A DNA stretch of 64,000 nt from Loktanella salsilacus (lineage in GTDB: Bacteria > Pseudomonadota > Alphaproteobacteria > Rhodobacterales > Rhodobacteraceae): NCBI RefSeq assembly GCF_900114485.1, contig NZ_FOTF01000006.1:62001-126000 (forward strand), read 5' to 3'. The notes below the pieces were generated by a model. It had not been told where the DNA came from and searched no databases. It saw only the letters and a list, made by a program, of their open reading frames with translations. Numbering within the stretch: position 1 is the first letter of the stretch; every line of letters starts with the position of its first letter. Both the position numbers and the translations under genes were made by a program. Below are positions 2,702-40,785 of the stretch, in pieces.

Positions 2702-5700
2702 GGCTGCGCACAAACGGCAGGCTGGTCGCCAAGAACCGGCCAGTGCATTTTACCTTTAACGGCAAACGGTTACAGGGCTACTCTGGCGACACGCTCGCCT
2801 CTGCCTTGTTGGCGAACGATCAACTGCTGGTCGGCCGCTCGTTCAAATACCACCGCCCACGCGGCCTTGTCGCCGCTGGCGCAGAAGAGCCGAACGCGCT
2901 GGTGGAACTGGGGCGCGGCGACCGGCAGGAACCCAACGCGCGTGTCACGCAGGTCGAACTGTTTGACGGCCTCGCTGCCCGCAGCCAGAACCATTGGCCA
3001 AGCCTTGAATTCGACGTCGGCGTCATCAACGCCAAGCTGTCGCGCTTTTTGCCCGCAGGTTTCTATTACAAGACCTTCATGCAGCCGCAGGCGTTCTGGA
3101 AGCATGTCTATGAGCCGATCATTCGCGCCTCTGCCGGCCTTGGCCGTGCGCCGGAAACCGGCGACGATCACACCTACGAGCACTTTAACGTCACTGTGGA
3201 TGTGCTTGTTGTTGGGGGCGGAATTGCGGGTCTGGCAGCGGCGCTGGCTGCGGGCCGTGCGGGTGCGCGGGTGCTGCTGGTGGAACAAACCTCTGGCTGG
3301 GGTGGCCGGGCTGTTGTGGACCGGCCCAGCATTGAAGGCATCAGTGCGCAGGACTGGGTGAATGCGACGCTGGCAGAGCTGGACGCCATGCCCAACGTCG
3401 ATGTGCGGCTGCGCTGTCAGGGCGCTGGCGTCTTCGATCACGGCTATGCGTTGGCGCACGAACGCCTGACCGACCACGCGCCCAAACAGGGCGGTCCGCG
3501 TCAGCGGCTTTGGCGGATCAGGGCCGGACGCATAGTCACCGCGACGGGCGCGATTGAACGGCCTTTGTCCTTTGCTTACAACGACGTGCCGGGCGTTCTT
3601 CTTGCGGCTGCCCTGCGCGATTACGTCGTAAACTTTGGCGTCGCTGTCGGCGAACGCACTGTGATTGTCACCAATAACGACGACGCCTACCGCACCGCGA
3701 TTGCCCTGCATGACGCAGGGCTAGACGTGCCCGCCGTGATCGACGCACGCACATCTGCGAAGGGCGAGCTGCCAGAGCAAGTGCGCGCCCTTGGCATTAA
3801 AGTGCTGACAAACAGCGGGATCGCATCCGTCGATGGCGGCAAGCGCGTCACCGGCGTGCAGGTCTGCGCGCAGGACGGCGAAGGCACGGTCACGGAAACG
3901 ATCCCCTGCGACTGCGTTGCCATGTCGGGCGGCTGGTCCCCCGTGGTGCACCTGTGGTCCCACTGCGGCGGCAAGCTGGTCTGGGACGAGCCGCATGCCT
4001 TTTTCCGCCCCGACGCGGATCGCCCGCCGCTGGGCGCGGACGGCGAAGGCTTCGTCATCGCGGTTGGCACTGCCAACGGCCATTTGTTCACCGCCGAGGC
4101 GATTGCCGACGGCTTTAGCGCCGGGCGCAAGGCAGCCAAGGTGGCGGGTCATACGCGCAAACCGGGCCAAGCCCCGATGGGCGACGATGTGGCAGAGGAT
4201 GCGCTGACCCCGGTCTGGATCATGCCCGCGCAGGCCCCGTACAAGCTGCGGTCAAAGATGTGGCTGGATTACCAAAACGACGTTAAAGTCAGCGACGTGC
4301 AACTGGCCGCGCAAGAGGGCTTTCAGTCTGTTGAGCACGCCAAGCGATACACCACGCTGGGCATGGCAACGGATCAGGGGAAGTTGAGCAATATCAACGG
4401 ACTCGCGGTGCTTTCTAATGCACTGGGTGAAGCAATCCCGCGAGTCGGCACTACGACCTTCCGTCCGCCTTATACACCGCTACCGCTAGCCGCGATCACA
4501 GGTGTGGCGCGGGACGAGCTGTTCCAGCCGATCCGCAAAACGCCGGTCCACGCATGGCACGATGCGCAGGGTGCAGAGTTCGAGCCTGTCGGCCAATGGC
4601 GCAGGCCCTATGCCTATCCGCGCGGGGACGAGACAGCGCATGACGCGGTCACGCGCGAGGTGGTGAACACCCGCGAAAACGTCGGCCTGCTGGACGCGTC
4701 CACCCTTGGCAAGTTGATCGTCAAAGGGCCGGACGCGGGCAAGTTTCTGGACATGATGTATACCAACATGATGTCCAATCTGGCCGTCGGCAAATGCCGC
4801 TATGGTCTGATGTGCAGCGAAAACGGCTTCTTGATGGACGACGGTGTTGTCGCCCGGATGGATGACGACACCTGGCTTTGCCACACCACCACCGGCGGCG
4901 CTGATCGTATTTTGGCGCATATGGAAGACTGGCTGCAGTGCGAATGGTGGGATTGGCAGGTCTATGTGGCCAATGTCACCGAGCAATACGCTCAATTTGC
5001 TGTCGTTGGCCCCAAGGCACGGCAGCTGTTGCAGGCGATTGGCGGCATGGCGCTGACCAAGGATGACCTGCCGTTTATGCAATGGGCAAGCGGGCAGATT
5101 GGCGGCTTTGACGTGCGGGTGTTCCGCATCAGTTTCTCTGGCGAGTTGTCGTATGAAATCGCCGTCGCCGCGGGCCAAGGGGCTGCGTTCTGGGATATGC
5201 TGGTCAAACAGGGCGAGGCTTTCGGCCTGATGCCCTACGGGACAGAGGCGCTGCACGTCCTGCGGGCCGAAAAGGGCTTTATCATGATCGGTGATGAAAC
5301 CGATGGTACGGTCATTCCGCAGGACTTGAATCTGAACTGGGCGATTTCCAAGAAAAAGGACGACTTTTTGGGCAAGCGCGGCCAGCTGCGCAGCCATATG
5401 GTCGACCCGGATCGCTGGAAACTGGTCGGGCTGGAAACAGTGGATGGCTCGGTCTTGGCAGACGGCGCTTATGCGGTGGCAGAGGGCGTAAATGCCAATG
5501 GCCAGCGCAACACCCAAGGACGCGTCACATCGACCTATTATTCGCCGACGCTGAAAAAGGGCATCGCGATGGGGCTGGTGAAACACGGCCCCACCCGCAT
5601 GGGCGAAGTGATCGCCTTTACCAAAGAGGGCGGCGGGTTTGTCGATGCGCGCATCGTCGATCCGGTGTTCTATGACAAGGACGGAGAGAAGCAGAATGTC

Positions 5701-5703
5701 TGA
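2698..5703 (+). CDS. soxA: Sarcosine oxidase alpha subunit
   Basis: Large subunit (1001 residues) that binds NAD and tetrahydrofolate. An N-terminal 2Fe-2S-like fold without cluster (about 10-100, with YHRPRG) is followed by a Rossmann NAD-binding domain with VGGGIAGLAAAL near residue 172, and by a C-terminal aminomethyltransferase (GCV_T-like) domain from about residue 610 that should bind folate. The start is the ATG overlapping the soxD stop; an upstream in-frame start at 2563 would run through soxD and is rejected. soxG overlaps its last codons. Confidence 0.95.
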   Translation: MRLRTNGRLVAKNRPVHFTFNGKRLQGYSGDTLASALLANDQLLVGRSFKYHRPRGLVAAGAEEPNALVELGRGDRQEPNARVTQVELFDGLAARSQNHWPSLEFDVGVINAKLSRFLPAGFYYKTFMQPQAFWKHVYEPIIRASAGLGRAPETGDDHTYEHFNVTVDVLVVGGGIAGLAAALAAGRAGARVLLVEQTSGWGGRAVVDRPSIEGISAQDWVNATLAELDAMPNVDVRLRCQGAGVFDHGYALAHERLTDHAPKQGGPRQRLWRIRAGRIVTATGAIERPLSFAYNDVPGVLLAAALRDYVVNFGVAVGERTVIVTNNDDAYRTAIALHDAGLDVPAVIDARTSAKGELPEQVRALGIKVLTNSGIASVDGGKRVTGVQVCAQDGEGTVTETIPCDCVAMSGGWSPVVHLWSHCGGKLVWDEPHAFFRPDADRPPLGADGEGFVIAVGTANGHLFTAEAIADGFSAGRKAAKVAGHTRKPGQAPMGDDVAEDALTPVWIMPAQAPYKLRSKMWLDYQNDVKVSDVQLAAQEGFQSVEHAKRYTTLGMATDQGKLSNINGLAVLSNALGEAIPRVGTTTFRPPYTPLPLAAITGVARDELFQPIRKTPVHAWHDAQGAEFEPVGQWRRPYAYPRGDETAHDAVTREVVNTRENVGLLDASTLGKLIVKGPDAGKFLDMMYTNMMSNLAVGKCRYGLMCSENGFLMDDGVVARMDDDTWLCHTTTGGADRILAHMEDWLQCEWWDWQVYVANVTEQYAQFAVVGPKARQLLQAIGGMALTKDDLPFMQWASGQIGGFDVRVFRISFSGELSYEIAVAAGQGAAFWDMLVKQGEAFGLMPYGTEALHVLRAEKGFIMIGDETDGTVIPQDLNLNWAISKKKDDFLGKRGQLRSHMVDPDRWKLVGLETVDGSVLADGAYAVAEGVNANGQRNTQGRVTSTYYSPTLKKGIAMGLVKHGPTRMGEVIAFTKEGGGFVDARIVDPVFYDKDGEKQNV

Positions 5704-6271
5704 TCCCATCAGCGCCCTTAGCCTGCGGGCCACGCACGGCAGCGTCCAAGTCAGCGATACCGGCGTGCACGGCATGATCACCCTGCGCGGCGATCTGGCG
5801 TCCTCGAAAATCCGGTCGCTTTGCAAGGATTTGGTTGGCTTGCCAGCCCCTGCGCCGCGTGAAGTGCAGGTCAAAGGCGACGCCGCCGTGCTGTGGATGT
5901 CCCCGGACGAGCTGCTGTTCGTGCTGCCTTATGGCAGTGTGGCGGATAGTTTGGCCCGCATCGCCAAAGTGCTGAAAGGCCAGCATCATCTGGCGGTCGA
6001 CGTCTCTGATGCGCGCACCATGCTGCGGGTGGACGGGCCGTTCGCCCGCGAAGTCATCGCCAAGCTGGCCCCCGTTGATCTGTACCCCGGCGCATTCGGC
6101 GAAGGCCAAGTGCTGCGGTCCAGACTCGGGCAGATCGCGGCGGCTTTTTGGATGAGCGGTCCGCAAACGTTTGAAGTCATCTGTTTCCGCTCTGTTGCCG
6201 AATATGCCTTTGATTTGCTGGCTGCATCGGCGGCTGCGGGGCCAGTTGGGCACTTTCCACGCGGAACTTGA
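5696..6271 (+). CDS. soxG: Sarcosine oxidase gamma subunit
   Basis: The 191-residue product begins MSDPISAL and shows the GCV_T-like fold typical of SoxG, the fourth subunit of heterotetrameric sarcosine oxidase (WMSPDELLFVLP, DVSDARTMLRVDGP). The ATG lies inside the last codons of soxA (8-base overlap) with GGAGAG upstream, so the two are translationally coupled. Length matches the family (about 180-200). Confidence 0.92.
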   Translation: MSDPISALSLRATHGSVQVSDTGVHGMITLRGDLASSKIRSLCKDLVGLPAPAPREVQVKGDAAVLWMSPDELLFVLPYGSVADSLARIAKVLKGQHHLAVDVSDARTMLRVDGPFAREVIAKLAPVDLYPGAFGEGQVLRSRLGQIAAAFWMSGPQTFEVICFRSVAEYAFDLLAASAAAGPVGHFPRGT

Positions 6272-36269: not shown

Positions 36270-37349
36270 TTAACCCTCTTCCTCGGCGTCGGGATCTATC
36301 AGGCTGATGGTGCCGTCGTCGGCAAGTGCGCGGATCGCGGCGCTGACGGCGTTCATCGCCGCTTCGCCGTCGACGGTTTTGGGGGTGCCGCGTTCGGCGG
36401 CTTCTTCTTTCATGCTGGATGCCATGCGTTGGGAAATGCAATCGAGGATGAAATTCGCCGCCTCTTCGCGTTTGCCGCCGTTGCCAAGGGCAAAGGCCAT
36501 GGCGGTTGCCAGATCGCTTGCTTCGATCACGCGCAGGCAGCCGGGGACGTGGATGGGGCGCACGCGGGCCGGGATGTCTTCGAAGGTAAAGATCGCCTTG
36601 CGCACATCCTTGGCAAAGTCGGCGTCGGATTCGTCAAGGCCAACCAACACGTCGTCGCGGGTCAGCGCCGGGCTAGAGTTCAGGATCGCGCCCACCCGTT
36701 CAACCGGGGCCTTTTCAAAGGCGGTCAGGCGGGTGCGGCAATAGTCGGACACCAGCGCATGCCCGATCCGCGTGACGGCGTCCGGGGCGATATCAGCGGT
36801 CTGGCGCACGGCAAAGGTGATGCGCCGTGCGCGTTCGCCCGGCAGTTTGCCCAGCACTTCTGCCGCGCGGGCCACGGGAAGTTTAGACAACAGAACTGCC
36901 CCGATCTGTATGCTTTCATTCGATAAGACTTTGACCACCTCATCCGTGGTCAGGTTTTGCAGCCGGATAAACGGATCGCGCCCAGTGCGGTTATCAAGCT
37001 GATCGCGCAGTTTATCGGCGAGATGCGGAGAGATATGACCGGCCAACGCCTCTAGCGCGGCATCGACGTTGCCGGGGGCGGATAGGCCGATGGCGTCCAG
37101 CAGGTCGGCAAATTCGGTGGCCACGGCGTTCACCGTATCCCGGTCCACCAGCCTGATCGCGCCAAGTTCGCGGGCCAAATCCTCTTGCACATGGTCGGGC
37201 ATGCTGGACAGCGCCAGTTTATTGCCGTCGCTGATCAGCAATTGCACAATCAGCGCCGCCTTACGCTTGCGCGTTAGCCGCAGCGTGCCAGAGGGACTGG
37301 GCGCACCAAACGGCGCAGAATCGGGAAGGGGATCAAAGGCATTGAGCAT
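36270..37349 (-). CDS. fliG: FliG-like flagellar motor switch protein (orphan)
   Basis: A 359-residue protein with the FliG layout: N-terminal helical domain starting RKRKAALIVQLL, a middle ARM domain (KLPVARAAEVLGKLPGERARR), and a C-terminal domain with VRKAIFTFEDIPAR. By hand alignment to E. coli FliG, Arg308 matches Arg281, Glu315-Glu316 match Asp288-Asp289 and Lys324 matches Arg297, while Lys264 is shifted; so the stator-facing charges are largely kept. The EHPQ motif of the middle domain is replaced by NESIQ (144-148). No other flagellar gene is nearby. It lies 44 bases after an HTH-less LuxR-like gene on the same strand. Confidence 0.85.
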   Translation of the reverse strand: MLNAFDPLPDSAPFGAPSPSGTLRLTRKRKAALIVQLLISDGNKLALSSMPDHVQEDLARELGAIRLVDRDTVNAVATEFADLLDAIGLSAPGNVDAALEALAGHISPHLADKLRDQLDNRTGRDPFIRLQNLTTDEVVKVLSNESIQIGAVLLSKLPVARAAEVLGKLPGERARRITFAVRQTADIAPDAVTRIGHALVSDYCRTRLTAFEKAPVERVGAILNSSPALTRDDVLVGLDESDADFAKDVRKAIFTFEDIPARVRPIHVPGCLRVIEASDLATAMAFALGNGGKREEAANFILDCISQRMASSMKEEAAERGTPKTVDGEAAMNAVSAAIRALADDGTISLIDPDAEEEG

Positions 37350-37393: not shown

Positions 37394-37876
37394 CTAGCCC
37401 TTGGCGTAGTTAATCGACATGCCGCGCAGCGCTTCGATCGCTTCTGGCGACAGATCCTCTACGGATTTGGTCGCGTCGTGCAGTTCGGATAGCACTTCGG
37501 ACAGCTCGTCGATTTCGTCTTGGGTAAATTCGCGGTCCGCCCGTGCAAAGCTGCCAAAGCTGCGGCTGCCGTCGGTTTCCAGCGCGCAAACGATGCCATA
37601 GTTCAGACCATGCTGCGCCGCACGCTGCATCACCCGCGATGGATCGTCGGTCAGATCAGACCAGCGGCAGCTGCCGTCGTTGCTAAAGCCCCATGACACG
37701 GTCGGATCGGCCATGACCAAAGCATGCAGCGAATAATAGGTCGTCCACGCCTTAGGGTAGGCCTGTAGCAAGAATGTCGGTGTTGTGTAACGAATGTGAA
37801 AAGCCAGCGCATAACCTGCAGGTGCAAGACCCGAAGCATGTTCTAACCGTTTCAGCATCTGCGTAACGTCTGACAT
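37394..37876 (-). CDS. LuxR-family autoinducer-binding protein lacking HTH
   Basis: A 160-residue protein comprising only the N-terminal autoinducer-binding domain. All key pocket positions are present: Trp44, Tyr48, Asp57-Pro58, Trp72, Gly94 (TraR-type W, Y, D, P, W, G). It stops after LSPEAIEALRGMSINYAKG, which resembles the first HTH helix, so the DNA-binding domain is missing; nothing resembling it follows the stop. It is divergent from a full luxR, with AGGATT 9 bases before the start. Shortened LuxR proteins can act as ligand sinks or inactive dimer partners; that role here is inferred. Confidence 0.85.
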   Translation of the reverse strand: MSDVTQMLKRLEHASGLAPAGYALAFHIRYTTPTFLLQAYPKAWTTYYSLHALVMADPTVSWGFSNDGSCRWSDLTDDPSRVMQRAAQHGLNYGIVCALETDGSRSFGSFARADREFTQDEIDELSEVLSELHDATKSVEDLSPEAIEALRGMSINYAKG

Positions 37877-37975
37877 TTTTCACAATCCTGTGGCTTGGTG
37901 GTTCAGGTTTCACTAACAGCGAAAAGCTGATTTTCTTTCACGGTCGGGTAGCTTACTATCCAAAAGTGTAATGCG

Positions 37976-38003
37976 CAGTTTAACTATAAGGCGACGTTAA
38001 CTG
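37976..38003. promoter_or_regulatory. Inverted repeat abutting the luxR start
   Basis: CAGTTTAAC (37976-37984) and GTTAACTG (37996-38003) form an imperfect inverted repeat ending at the base before the luxR ATG, with the only SD-like AAGG in the loop. It could be an operator or an RNA hairpin masking the ribosome binding site. It does not match the classic 20-bp lux box. Confidence 0.35.
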
Positions 38004-39477: not shown

Positions 39478-40785
39478 TTAGTCTTTCCCGAACACGCGGG
39501 CAAAGATCGTGTCGACGTGTTTGGTGTGATAACCAATGTCGAACTTTTCTTCGATCTGCGCAGGTGACAGGGCCGCGGTGACTTCAGCGTCGGCCAGCAG
39601 CTCGGTTTTGAAATCAGCGCCTTTTTCCCAGACCTTCATCGCGTTGCGCTGCACCAGCTTATAGCTGTCCTCGCGGCTGACGCCGGCTTGGGTCAGGGCC
39701 AGAAGCACGCGCTGCGACATCACCAGACCGCGGAACTTGTTCATGTTCGCCAGCATGGTTTCGGGATAGATCACCAGCTTTTCAATCAGGCCCGCCAGAC
39801 GGTTCAGCGCGAAATCTAGGGTGACGGTGGTGTCTGGGCCGATGGTCCGCTCGACAGACGAATGCGAGATATCGCGCTCGTGCCACAGCGTGACGTTTTC
39901 CAGCGCAGGGGTGACGGACATGCGCACCAGACGGGCAAGGCCAGTCAGGTTTTCGGTCAGCACCGGGTTACGCTTGTGCGGCATCGCGGACGATCCCTTT
40001 TGACCAGGAGAGAAGAACTCCTCGGCCTCTAGCACTTCGGTGCGCTGCATGTGGCGCACTTCGGTGGCGATATTTTCCATCGAGGATGCGATCACACCCA
40101 ACGTGGCAAAGAACATCGCGTGACGATCGCGCGGGATGACCTGCGTGCTGATCGGCTCTGGCGTCAGGCCCAGTTGCTTGCAGACGTGCTCTTCGACAGC
40201 CGGATCGATGTTGGCAAAGGTGCCGACAGCGCCAGAGATTGCGCCGGTCGCGATTTCAGCGCGGGCGTTGACCAGACGGGCGCGGCCCCGGTCCATTTCG
40301 GCATAGAATCGGGCAAAGGTCAGGCCCATCGTGGTTGGTTCGGCGTGGATGCCGTGGCTACGACCAATGCGGACGGTGTCCTTATGCTCATAGGCGCGCT
40401 TTTTCAGCGCGGCCAGCACGCGGTCCATGTCGGCCAGCAGAATGTCGGCGGCGCGCACCAGCTGGACGTTGAACGTGGTGTCCAGCACGTCAGAGGACGT
40501 CATACCCTGGTGCACAAAGCGTGCCTCGTCTGCGCCGATGTGTTCGGACAGGTGCGTCAGGAACGCGATGACGTCGTGCTTGGTAACGGCTTCGATCTCG
40601 TCGATGCGGGCCACGTCAAAGGTGACGTCCTTGGCTTTCCACACGGCCTCGGCGTTTTCGCGCGGGATCACGCCCAGATCTGCCATGGCGTCGCAGGCGT
40701 GCGCCTCGATCTCGTACCAGATTTTGTATTTTGTGGCCGGGTCCCAGATGGCAACCATCTCGGGACGGGAATAACGCGGGATCAT
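39478..40785 (-). CDS. purB: Adenylosuccinate lyase
   Basis: A 435-residue enzyme of the fumarase/aspartase superfamily, acting twice in purine synthesis (SAICAR to AICAR, adenylosuccinate to AMP). The signature loop SSAMPHKRNP with its catalytic serine is present, plus TSSDVLDT and RSHGIHAEP for substrate binding. Length and N-terminus (MIPRYSRPEMVAIWD) match the family. Convergent with luxI. Confidence 0.97.
   Translation of the reverse strand: MIPRYSRPEMVAIWDPATKYKIWYEIEAHACDAMADLGVIPRENAEAVWKAKDVTFDVARIDEIEAVTKHDVIAFLTHLSEHIGADEARFVHQGMTSSDVLDTTFNVQLVRAADILLADMDRVLAALKKRAYEHKDTVRIGRSHGIHAEPTTMGLTFARFYAEMDRGRARLVNARAEIATGAISGAVGTFANIDPAVEEHVCKQLGLTPEPISTQVIPRDRHAMFFATLGVIASSMENIATEVRHMQRTEVLEAEEFFSPGQKGSSAMPHKRNPVLTENLTGLARLVRMSVTPALENVTLWHERDISHSSVERTIGPDTTVTLDFALNRLAGLIEKLVIYPETMLANMNKFRGLVMSQRVLLALTQAGVSREDSYKLVQRNAMKVWEKGADFKTELLADAEVTAALSPAQIEEKFDIGYHTKHVDTIFARVFGKD

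Follow-up and report, generated by a model that had tools for sequence, protein, structure and literature searches.

To date, a function has been shown for only one ABD-only (autoinducer-binding domain) protein in the Rhodobacteraceae, CerN of Cereibacter sphaeroides, which lacks an HTH and binds CerM only with AHL present (Hernandez-Valle et al. 2024, PMC11655674). CerM is an AHL-independent DNA binder, and CerN together with AHL releases it from DNA. In a cerN mutant the level of CerM is reduced, yet the remaining CerM represses fully, and a W57F change has been hypothesised to lower the AHL affinity of CerM (all PMC11655674). TrlR is a copy of TraR (88% identity) and blocks an activator that needs AHL (PMC11655674). 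The Roseobacter "topology D" luxRI locus, with a purB flank, was drawn by Cude and Buchan in 2013 (PMC3824088), and Subramoni et al. listed a "group 4" of the form fliG-[hp-abd]-luxR-asl in 2015 (PMC4338825). Quorum sensing in the roseobacters and their relatives has mostly been described as LuxR/LuxI pairs.

The window considered here, a 64,000-nucleotide stretch of a Loktanella salsilacus contig, contains a locus with the same neighbourhood (Table 1). By analogy with C. sphaeroides, we read its short gene as probably encoding a CerN-type, AHL-dependent antagonist of the adjacent CerM-type LuxR, and we would put the probability of this reading at roughly 0.7. The original prediction had described a LuxR relative of 160 residues reduced to the ligand-binding part, and the six pocket residues that it named are all exactly where it placed them (Trp44, Tyr48, Asp57, Pro58, Trp72 and Gly94, with WYDPWG intact). 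The open reading frame begins with ATG; in Pfam its product matches Autoind_bind (E=1.8e-13, residues 5-127), with no match to GerE and nothing else of note. The claim that the protein ends where the HTH would begin holds for the absence of GerE but needs correction as to the exact end point: the core of the ABD is followed by about 25 residues (in the fold model, helix 144-153), so that the C-terminus falls inside the first GerE helix position and not strictly before the HTH. The best PDB matches of the AlphaFold model (pLDDT 80.9) in Foldseek are LuxR-family ligand-binding domains, those of SdiA, RhlR, QscR, TraR and LasR (E down to 1.9e-8, TMq about 0.5-0.7), and the protein is predicted from this model to have the alpha-beta-alpha ligand-binding fold of LuxR-type proteins, shared with SdiA, RhlR, TraR and LasR. 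The neighbouring paralogue has an intact HTH, as had been predicted (Pfam: Autoind_bind E=4.4e-15, GerE E=1.2e-8), and luxI lies downstream of it.

Table 1. Features of the short gene/luxR locus, in window coordinates.
Feature	Position	Strand	Remarks
Short ABD-only gene (probably CerN-type), 160 aa	37394..37876	-	Autoind_bind only; equal-length orthologues; dN/dS 0.12-0.19 (dS near saturation for most pairs)
Full-length LuxR-type regulator (probable CerM-type partner), 202 aa	38004..38612	+	ABD + GerE HTH; Leu36 at TraR-Tyr53 position
luxI-type AHL synthase, 216 aa	38760..39410	+	Autoind_synth E=2.9e-14 (Pfam)
fliG, flank, "topology D" marker	36270..37349	-	FliG_N, FliG_M, FliG_C
Adenylosuccinate lyase purB, flank, "topology D" marker	39478..40785	-	Named from translation; conserved in relatives
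Divergent intergenic region, 127 bp, shared by short gene and luxR	37877..38003		Divergent gap in nearly all relatives
Degenerate copy of family cis-motif ACTCGCTTTNNGGTTGC	37889..37905		9/15 specified bases; unconvincing in window

The absence of the HTH might suggest a degenerate gene without function. Only 44 nt separate the stop codon of the short gene from the start of fliG at 37349, however, so an HTH remnant would not fit after it; with that space absent and the orthologues equal in length, a recent frameshift or nonsense truncation is ruled out. Nei-Gojobori dN/dS values among four Loktanella genomes, most pairs of which approach saturation in dS, range from 0.12 to 0.19 in the short gene, from 0.05 to 0.15 in luxR, from 0.03 to 0.15 in luxI and from 0.03 to 0.08 in purB, and the closest pair (dS 0.73) gives 0.15 for the short gene. 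These ratios indicate that both the short gene and its partner luxR are under purifying selection, and neutral evolution of the short gene can be set aside. Taken with conservation in at least 75 genera and with six pocket positions kept in 72-76 of 76 short proteins, they leave a functionless gene with next to no chance of being the right explanation; the argument of the original prediction against simple decay is borne out, and this is a real, conserved ABD-only gene.

Single-protein and profile searches covered 397 Rhodobacteraceae genomes, nearly always one per genus, and the DNA around the matches was read back for the loci behind the count of ABD-only genes. Such a gene is present in at least 75 of the 397 genus-level genomes, and in nearly all cases a luxR diverges from it; the original prediction had suggested searching the family for this pair, and the recurrence of both gene and pairing rules out a lone truncation. 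The first 33 loci examined all have the short gene and a full-length luxR in divergent orientation, and only two of them lack a downstream luxI; a same-strand arrangement is seen in a few loci of the wider set (L069, L071 and L072). The divergent gap measures about 30-170 bp in nearly all relatives. Five of nine genomes of the window's own genus carry the module. Because fliG and/or purB adjoin it in only 16 of 45 loci (about a third; 4-kb flanks read), the module is not tied to that site. A Paracoccus protein (L003) taken as a short homologue was dropped, as it is full length. A sample of 289 Alphaproteobacteria genomes gave matches at E<=1e-15 only in two Rhodobacteraceae, and none outside the family. 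The window's own genome holds a second divergent short-ABD/LuxR pair (G000:C66:19210-20429; L105:7208-8436) with no luxI in range; an IS66 transposase and an rve-type integrase/transposase gene are found near it, suggesting a mobile copy.

The short gene keeps company with a particular kind of LuxR. Among 41 partner-type LuxR matches (195 bits or more, 199 genomes), 37 have a short neighbour; the four that do not are L167 (G086), L169 (G108), L171 (G024) and L172 (G051 C5). In L167 the LuxR still adjoins fliG, in a locus without the short gene and without luxI, and in L077 (G245) an ABD-only gene stands with LuxR and LuxI absent within about 4 kb. Given these four LuxRs alone and one short gene alone, the pairing is not obligate. 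The 18 solo-type LuxRs of the tree described below, most of which adjoin a luxI, all lack a short neighbour, and some short/LuxR pairs have no luxI. This distribution bears on the idea, raised as a possibility in PMC4338825, that the short protein is an AHL buffer that binds AHL and cuts its free level without contacting the LuxR. A conserved, receptor-like pocket signature (HRLQY...WYDPWG) would suit such a role, but the linkage is to one LuxR subfamily and not to luxI alone, and the binding of CerN to CerM is AHL-dependent, so that we consider a buffer improbable. The original prediction had offered simple titration of the AHL as one option, and nothing positive was found in its favour.

In a first tree, for which very distant LuxRs served as outgroup, weakly supported nodes did not close off the short group; a second tree, made without these LuxRs, was therefore used. 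Built from the ABD columns of 169 proteins, the second tree contains groups of 76 short proteins (SH-aLRT 86, below the 95 mark), 75 partner LuxRs (100) and 18 solo GtaR-like LuxRs (80), and the window LuxR, with ABD and GerE, falls in the partner group (support 100). The tree has no root and resolves its inner branches poorly, so a single origin of the short proteins is the favoured reading and not a proven one. Solo LuxRs score above partners against the short-protein profile, and the pocket signature of the short proteins is common to the solo LuxRs, which suggests that the short proteins descend from the solo GtaR-like receptor lineage. Distances among short proteins and among their partners correlate (Mantel r 0.62, with 0 of 2000 permutations as high), as would also follow from shared species history and linkage and not only from contact.

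The published cer locus has a close counterpart in the sample, at L157 in genome G051. The gene order there is cerN-cerM-cerR-cerI, as published; the Pfam scores of 65.7/46.5/128.9/282.8 are within about 3 bits of the published 66.1/47.5/128.1/281.5 (PMC11655674); CerN and CerM are 30% identical, against a published 31%; the CerM counterpart (5109-5795), and only CerM, has Phe at the pocket Trp, as published; and the genome has a gtaR-like gene without a synthase. Since all of these agree, we infer that G051 is C. sphaeroides or a close sister. CerN of L157 belongs to the short group and CerM to the partner group. The window's short protein is 38% identical to this CerN over 133 aa, and its LuxR is 40% identical to this CerM over 177 aa. 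Other genomes (L080, L082, L158-L160 and L166) have a short-LuxR-CerR-like order and group placement like L157. Two Loktanella genomes (G402 and G403; L095 and L096) each carry a fliG-linked cassette as well as a cerN-cerM-cerR-like cluster.

The Phe at TraR W57 is absent from the window LuxR. Among the 75 partners it occurs once, in L157 itself, so W57F cannot be a general cause of weakened AHL binding, nor can it define the CerM-type group. TraR Tyr53, equivalent to LasR Tyr56, is a hydrogen-bond partner of the AHL (PMC10613653, PMC4993992). When TraR numbering is assigned by the fixed Tyr-x3-Trp spacing, which is also seen in the RhlR and SdiA alignments, this position is Tyr in 72 of 76 short proteins and in all 18 solo LuxRs, and in the 75 partners it is Leu (56), Phe (13) or, in only three, Tyr. 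In 68 of 75 pairs the Tyr53 equivalent is kept by the short protein and missing from the partner. Partners also have Glu, Asn, Arg and Gly at positions near the Tyr53 equivalent that are occupied differently in short proteins and solo LuxRs. Loss of this Tyr may weaken AHL binding by the partner, and the residue pattern suggests that the short subunit has taken over AHL sensing. The wider proposal would be a split receptor across the Rhodobacteraceae, with AHL recognition in the HTH-less subunit, family-wide loss of the AHL-anchoring Tyr in the DNA-binding one, and the signal reaching DNA only via the heterodimer; we advance this tentatively, at somewhat less than even odds. If true, it would account for CerM's weak response to AHL better than W57F does. 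The window LuxR retains Trp40 (TraR W57), the Asp and other pocket residues, and so it may bind AHL itself.

The original prediction had drawn on TrlR, proposing that the short protein titrates the LuxR by heterodimerisation and so sets a threshold. In such a scheme the LuxR would require AHL, and dead heterodimers formed by the short protein would raise the level needed for induction. The domain architecture is that of TrlR, the short-protein pocket is intact, and TrlR is a cited precedent (PMC11655674, PMC13043044). The nearest characterised pair, CerN/CerM, acts on an AHL-free DNA binder, however, and near-total loss of the Tyr53 equivalent in the partners fits poorly with an AHL-requiring activator; we think this scheme unlikely. 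Antagonism of the heterodimer type is likely, as had been proposed. The part that fares less well is the threshold: because CerN targets a LuxR that binds DNA without AHL, the short protein is more likely to transmit the AHL signal than to raise a threshold.

With the short protein as a CerN-type antagonist, the LuxR homodimer would sit on its DNA sites without AHL at low cell density. As LuxI-made AHL builds up, the short protein would bind it and, once loaded, pair with the LuxR via the ligand-binding domain; the LuxR would then leave the DNA because, we propose, one HTH is not enough for a heterodimer to stay on the site. Together they would form a receptor of two subunits, in which the short protein senses AHL and the LuxR provides the output by binding DNA. 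By analogy, the Loktanella pair would act like CerN/CerM, with LuxR binding to DNA without AHL, and the AHL binding, heterodimerisation and sign of regulation in Loktanella would presumably match. The drop in CerM level in the cerN mutant (PMC11655674) agrees with a chaperone or stabiliser that guards the LuxR from proteolysis, DNA release being secondary, but the reduced CerM still represses fully in C. sphaeroides, so antagonism dominates there; we regard a primary chaperone role as very improbable.

The shared intergenic region was inspected for control elements. In about 30 of 73 divergent regions compared, ACTCGCTTTNNGGTTGC lies 0-20 nt from the start of the short gene (L103, L055, L054, L037, L033, L023, L020, L012 and others), with an EM log-likelihood of 275 against 57-84 for shuffles. 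In eight genomes picked for having the motif, the exact form occurs once per genome and always in the short/luxR intergenic region, and mismatched copies show no overall excess over a reversed-pattern control. Its distribution marks ACTCGCTTTNNGGTTGC as a locus-specific cis element, a candidate operator or leader element. The intergenic region of the window gave no convincing match to the CerM operator TNTN5AAGACAN2T and no palindromic lux box, and a sigma70 promoter and terminator scan returned nothing. A site at about 37960, TATCCAAAA, resembles the published BS1 over 9 nt and was dropped, as it is not retained in sister species.

If about one genus-level genome in five does have an AHL-sensing subunit apart from the DNA-binding LuxR, descriptions of many "luxRI" operons in this family have lacked a component and may have given the wrong direction for the AHL response. 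Lying beside fliG, the cassette is also a candidate for coupling motility to quorum sensing, as happens in C. sphaeroides.

Several described systems resemble this one in part. TrlR of Agrobacterium is likewise a LuxR-type protein without a DNA-binding domain, but it is a recent near-copy (88%) of TraR, an AHL-dependent activator, whereas the window pair is 36% identical over 138 aa, an old paralogue and not a near-identical truncated copy of its target, which makes the analogy in the original prediction a poor one. Judged by profile score and pocket signature, the full-length proteins most closely related to the short ones are the GtaR/LuxR1-type regulators of the Rhodobacteraceae, but they have their own HTH and, in the 18 sampled, no short neighbour. 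The "topology D" and "group 4" papers describe the same neighbourhood of fliG, ABD-only gene, luxR, luxI and adenylosuccinate lyase, Loktanella included; the locus was catalogued there, in 2013 and 2015, with the short gene given neither function nor family status. No description of the short proteins as a family, or of the Tyr53 pattern, was found in the open-licence literature, and what is new here is the family-wide short/LuxR pairing and the residue split at Tyr53. CerN/CerM differs from the window pair in that the window luxI is directly downstream of the CerM-type LuxR with no cerR between, the window LuxI bears only a distant resemblance to CerI (43 bits), and the window LuxR keeps Trp40 where CerM has Phe. 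In both systems, however, an ABD-only protein is encoded divergently from a full-length LuxR, the two proteins fall in the same two groups of the tree, and the pocket of the short partner is intact.
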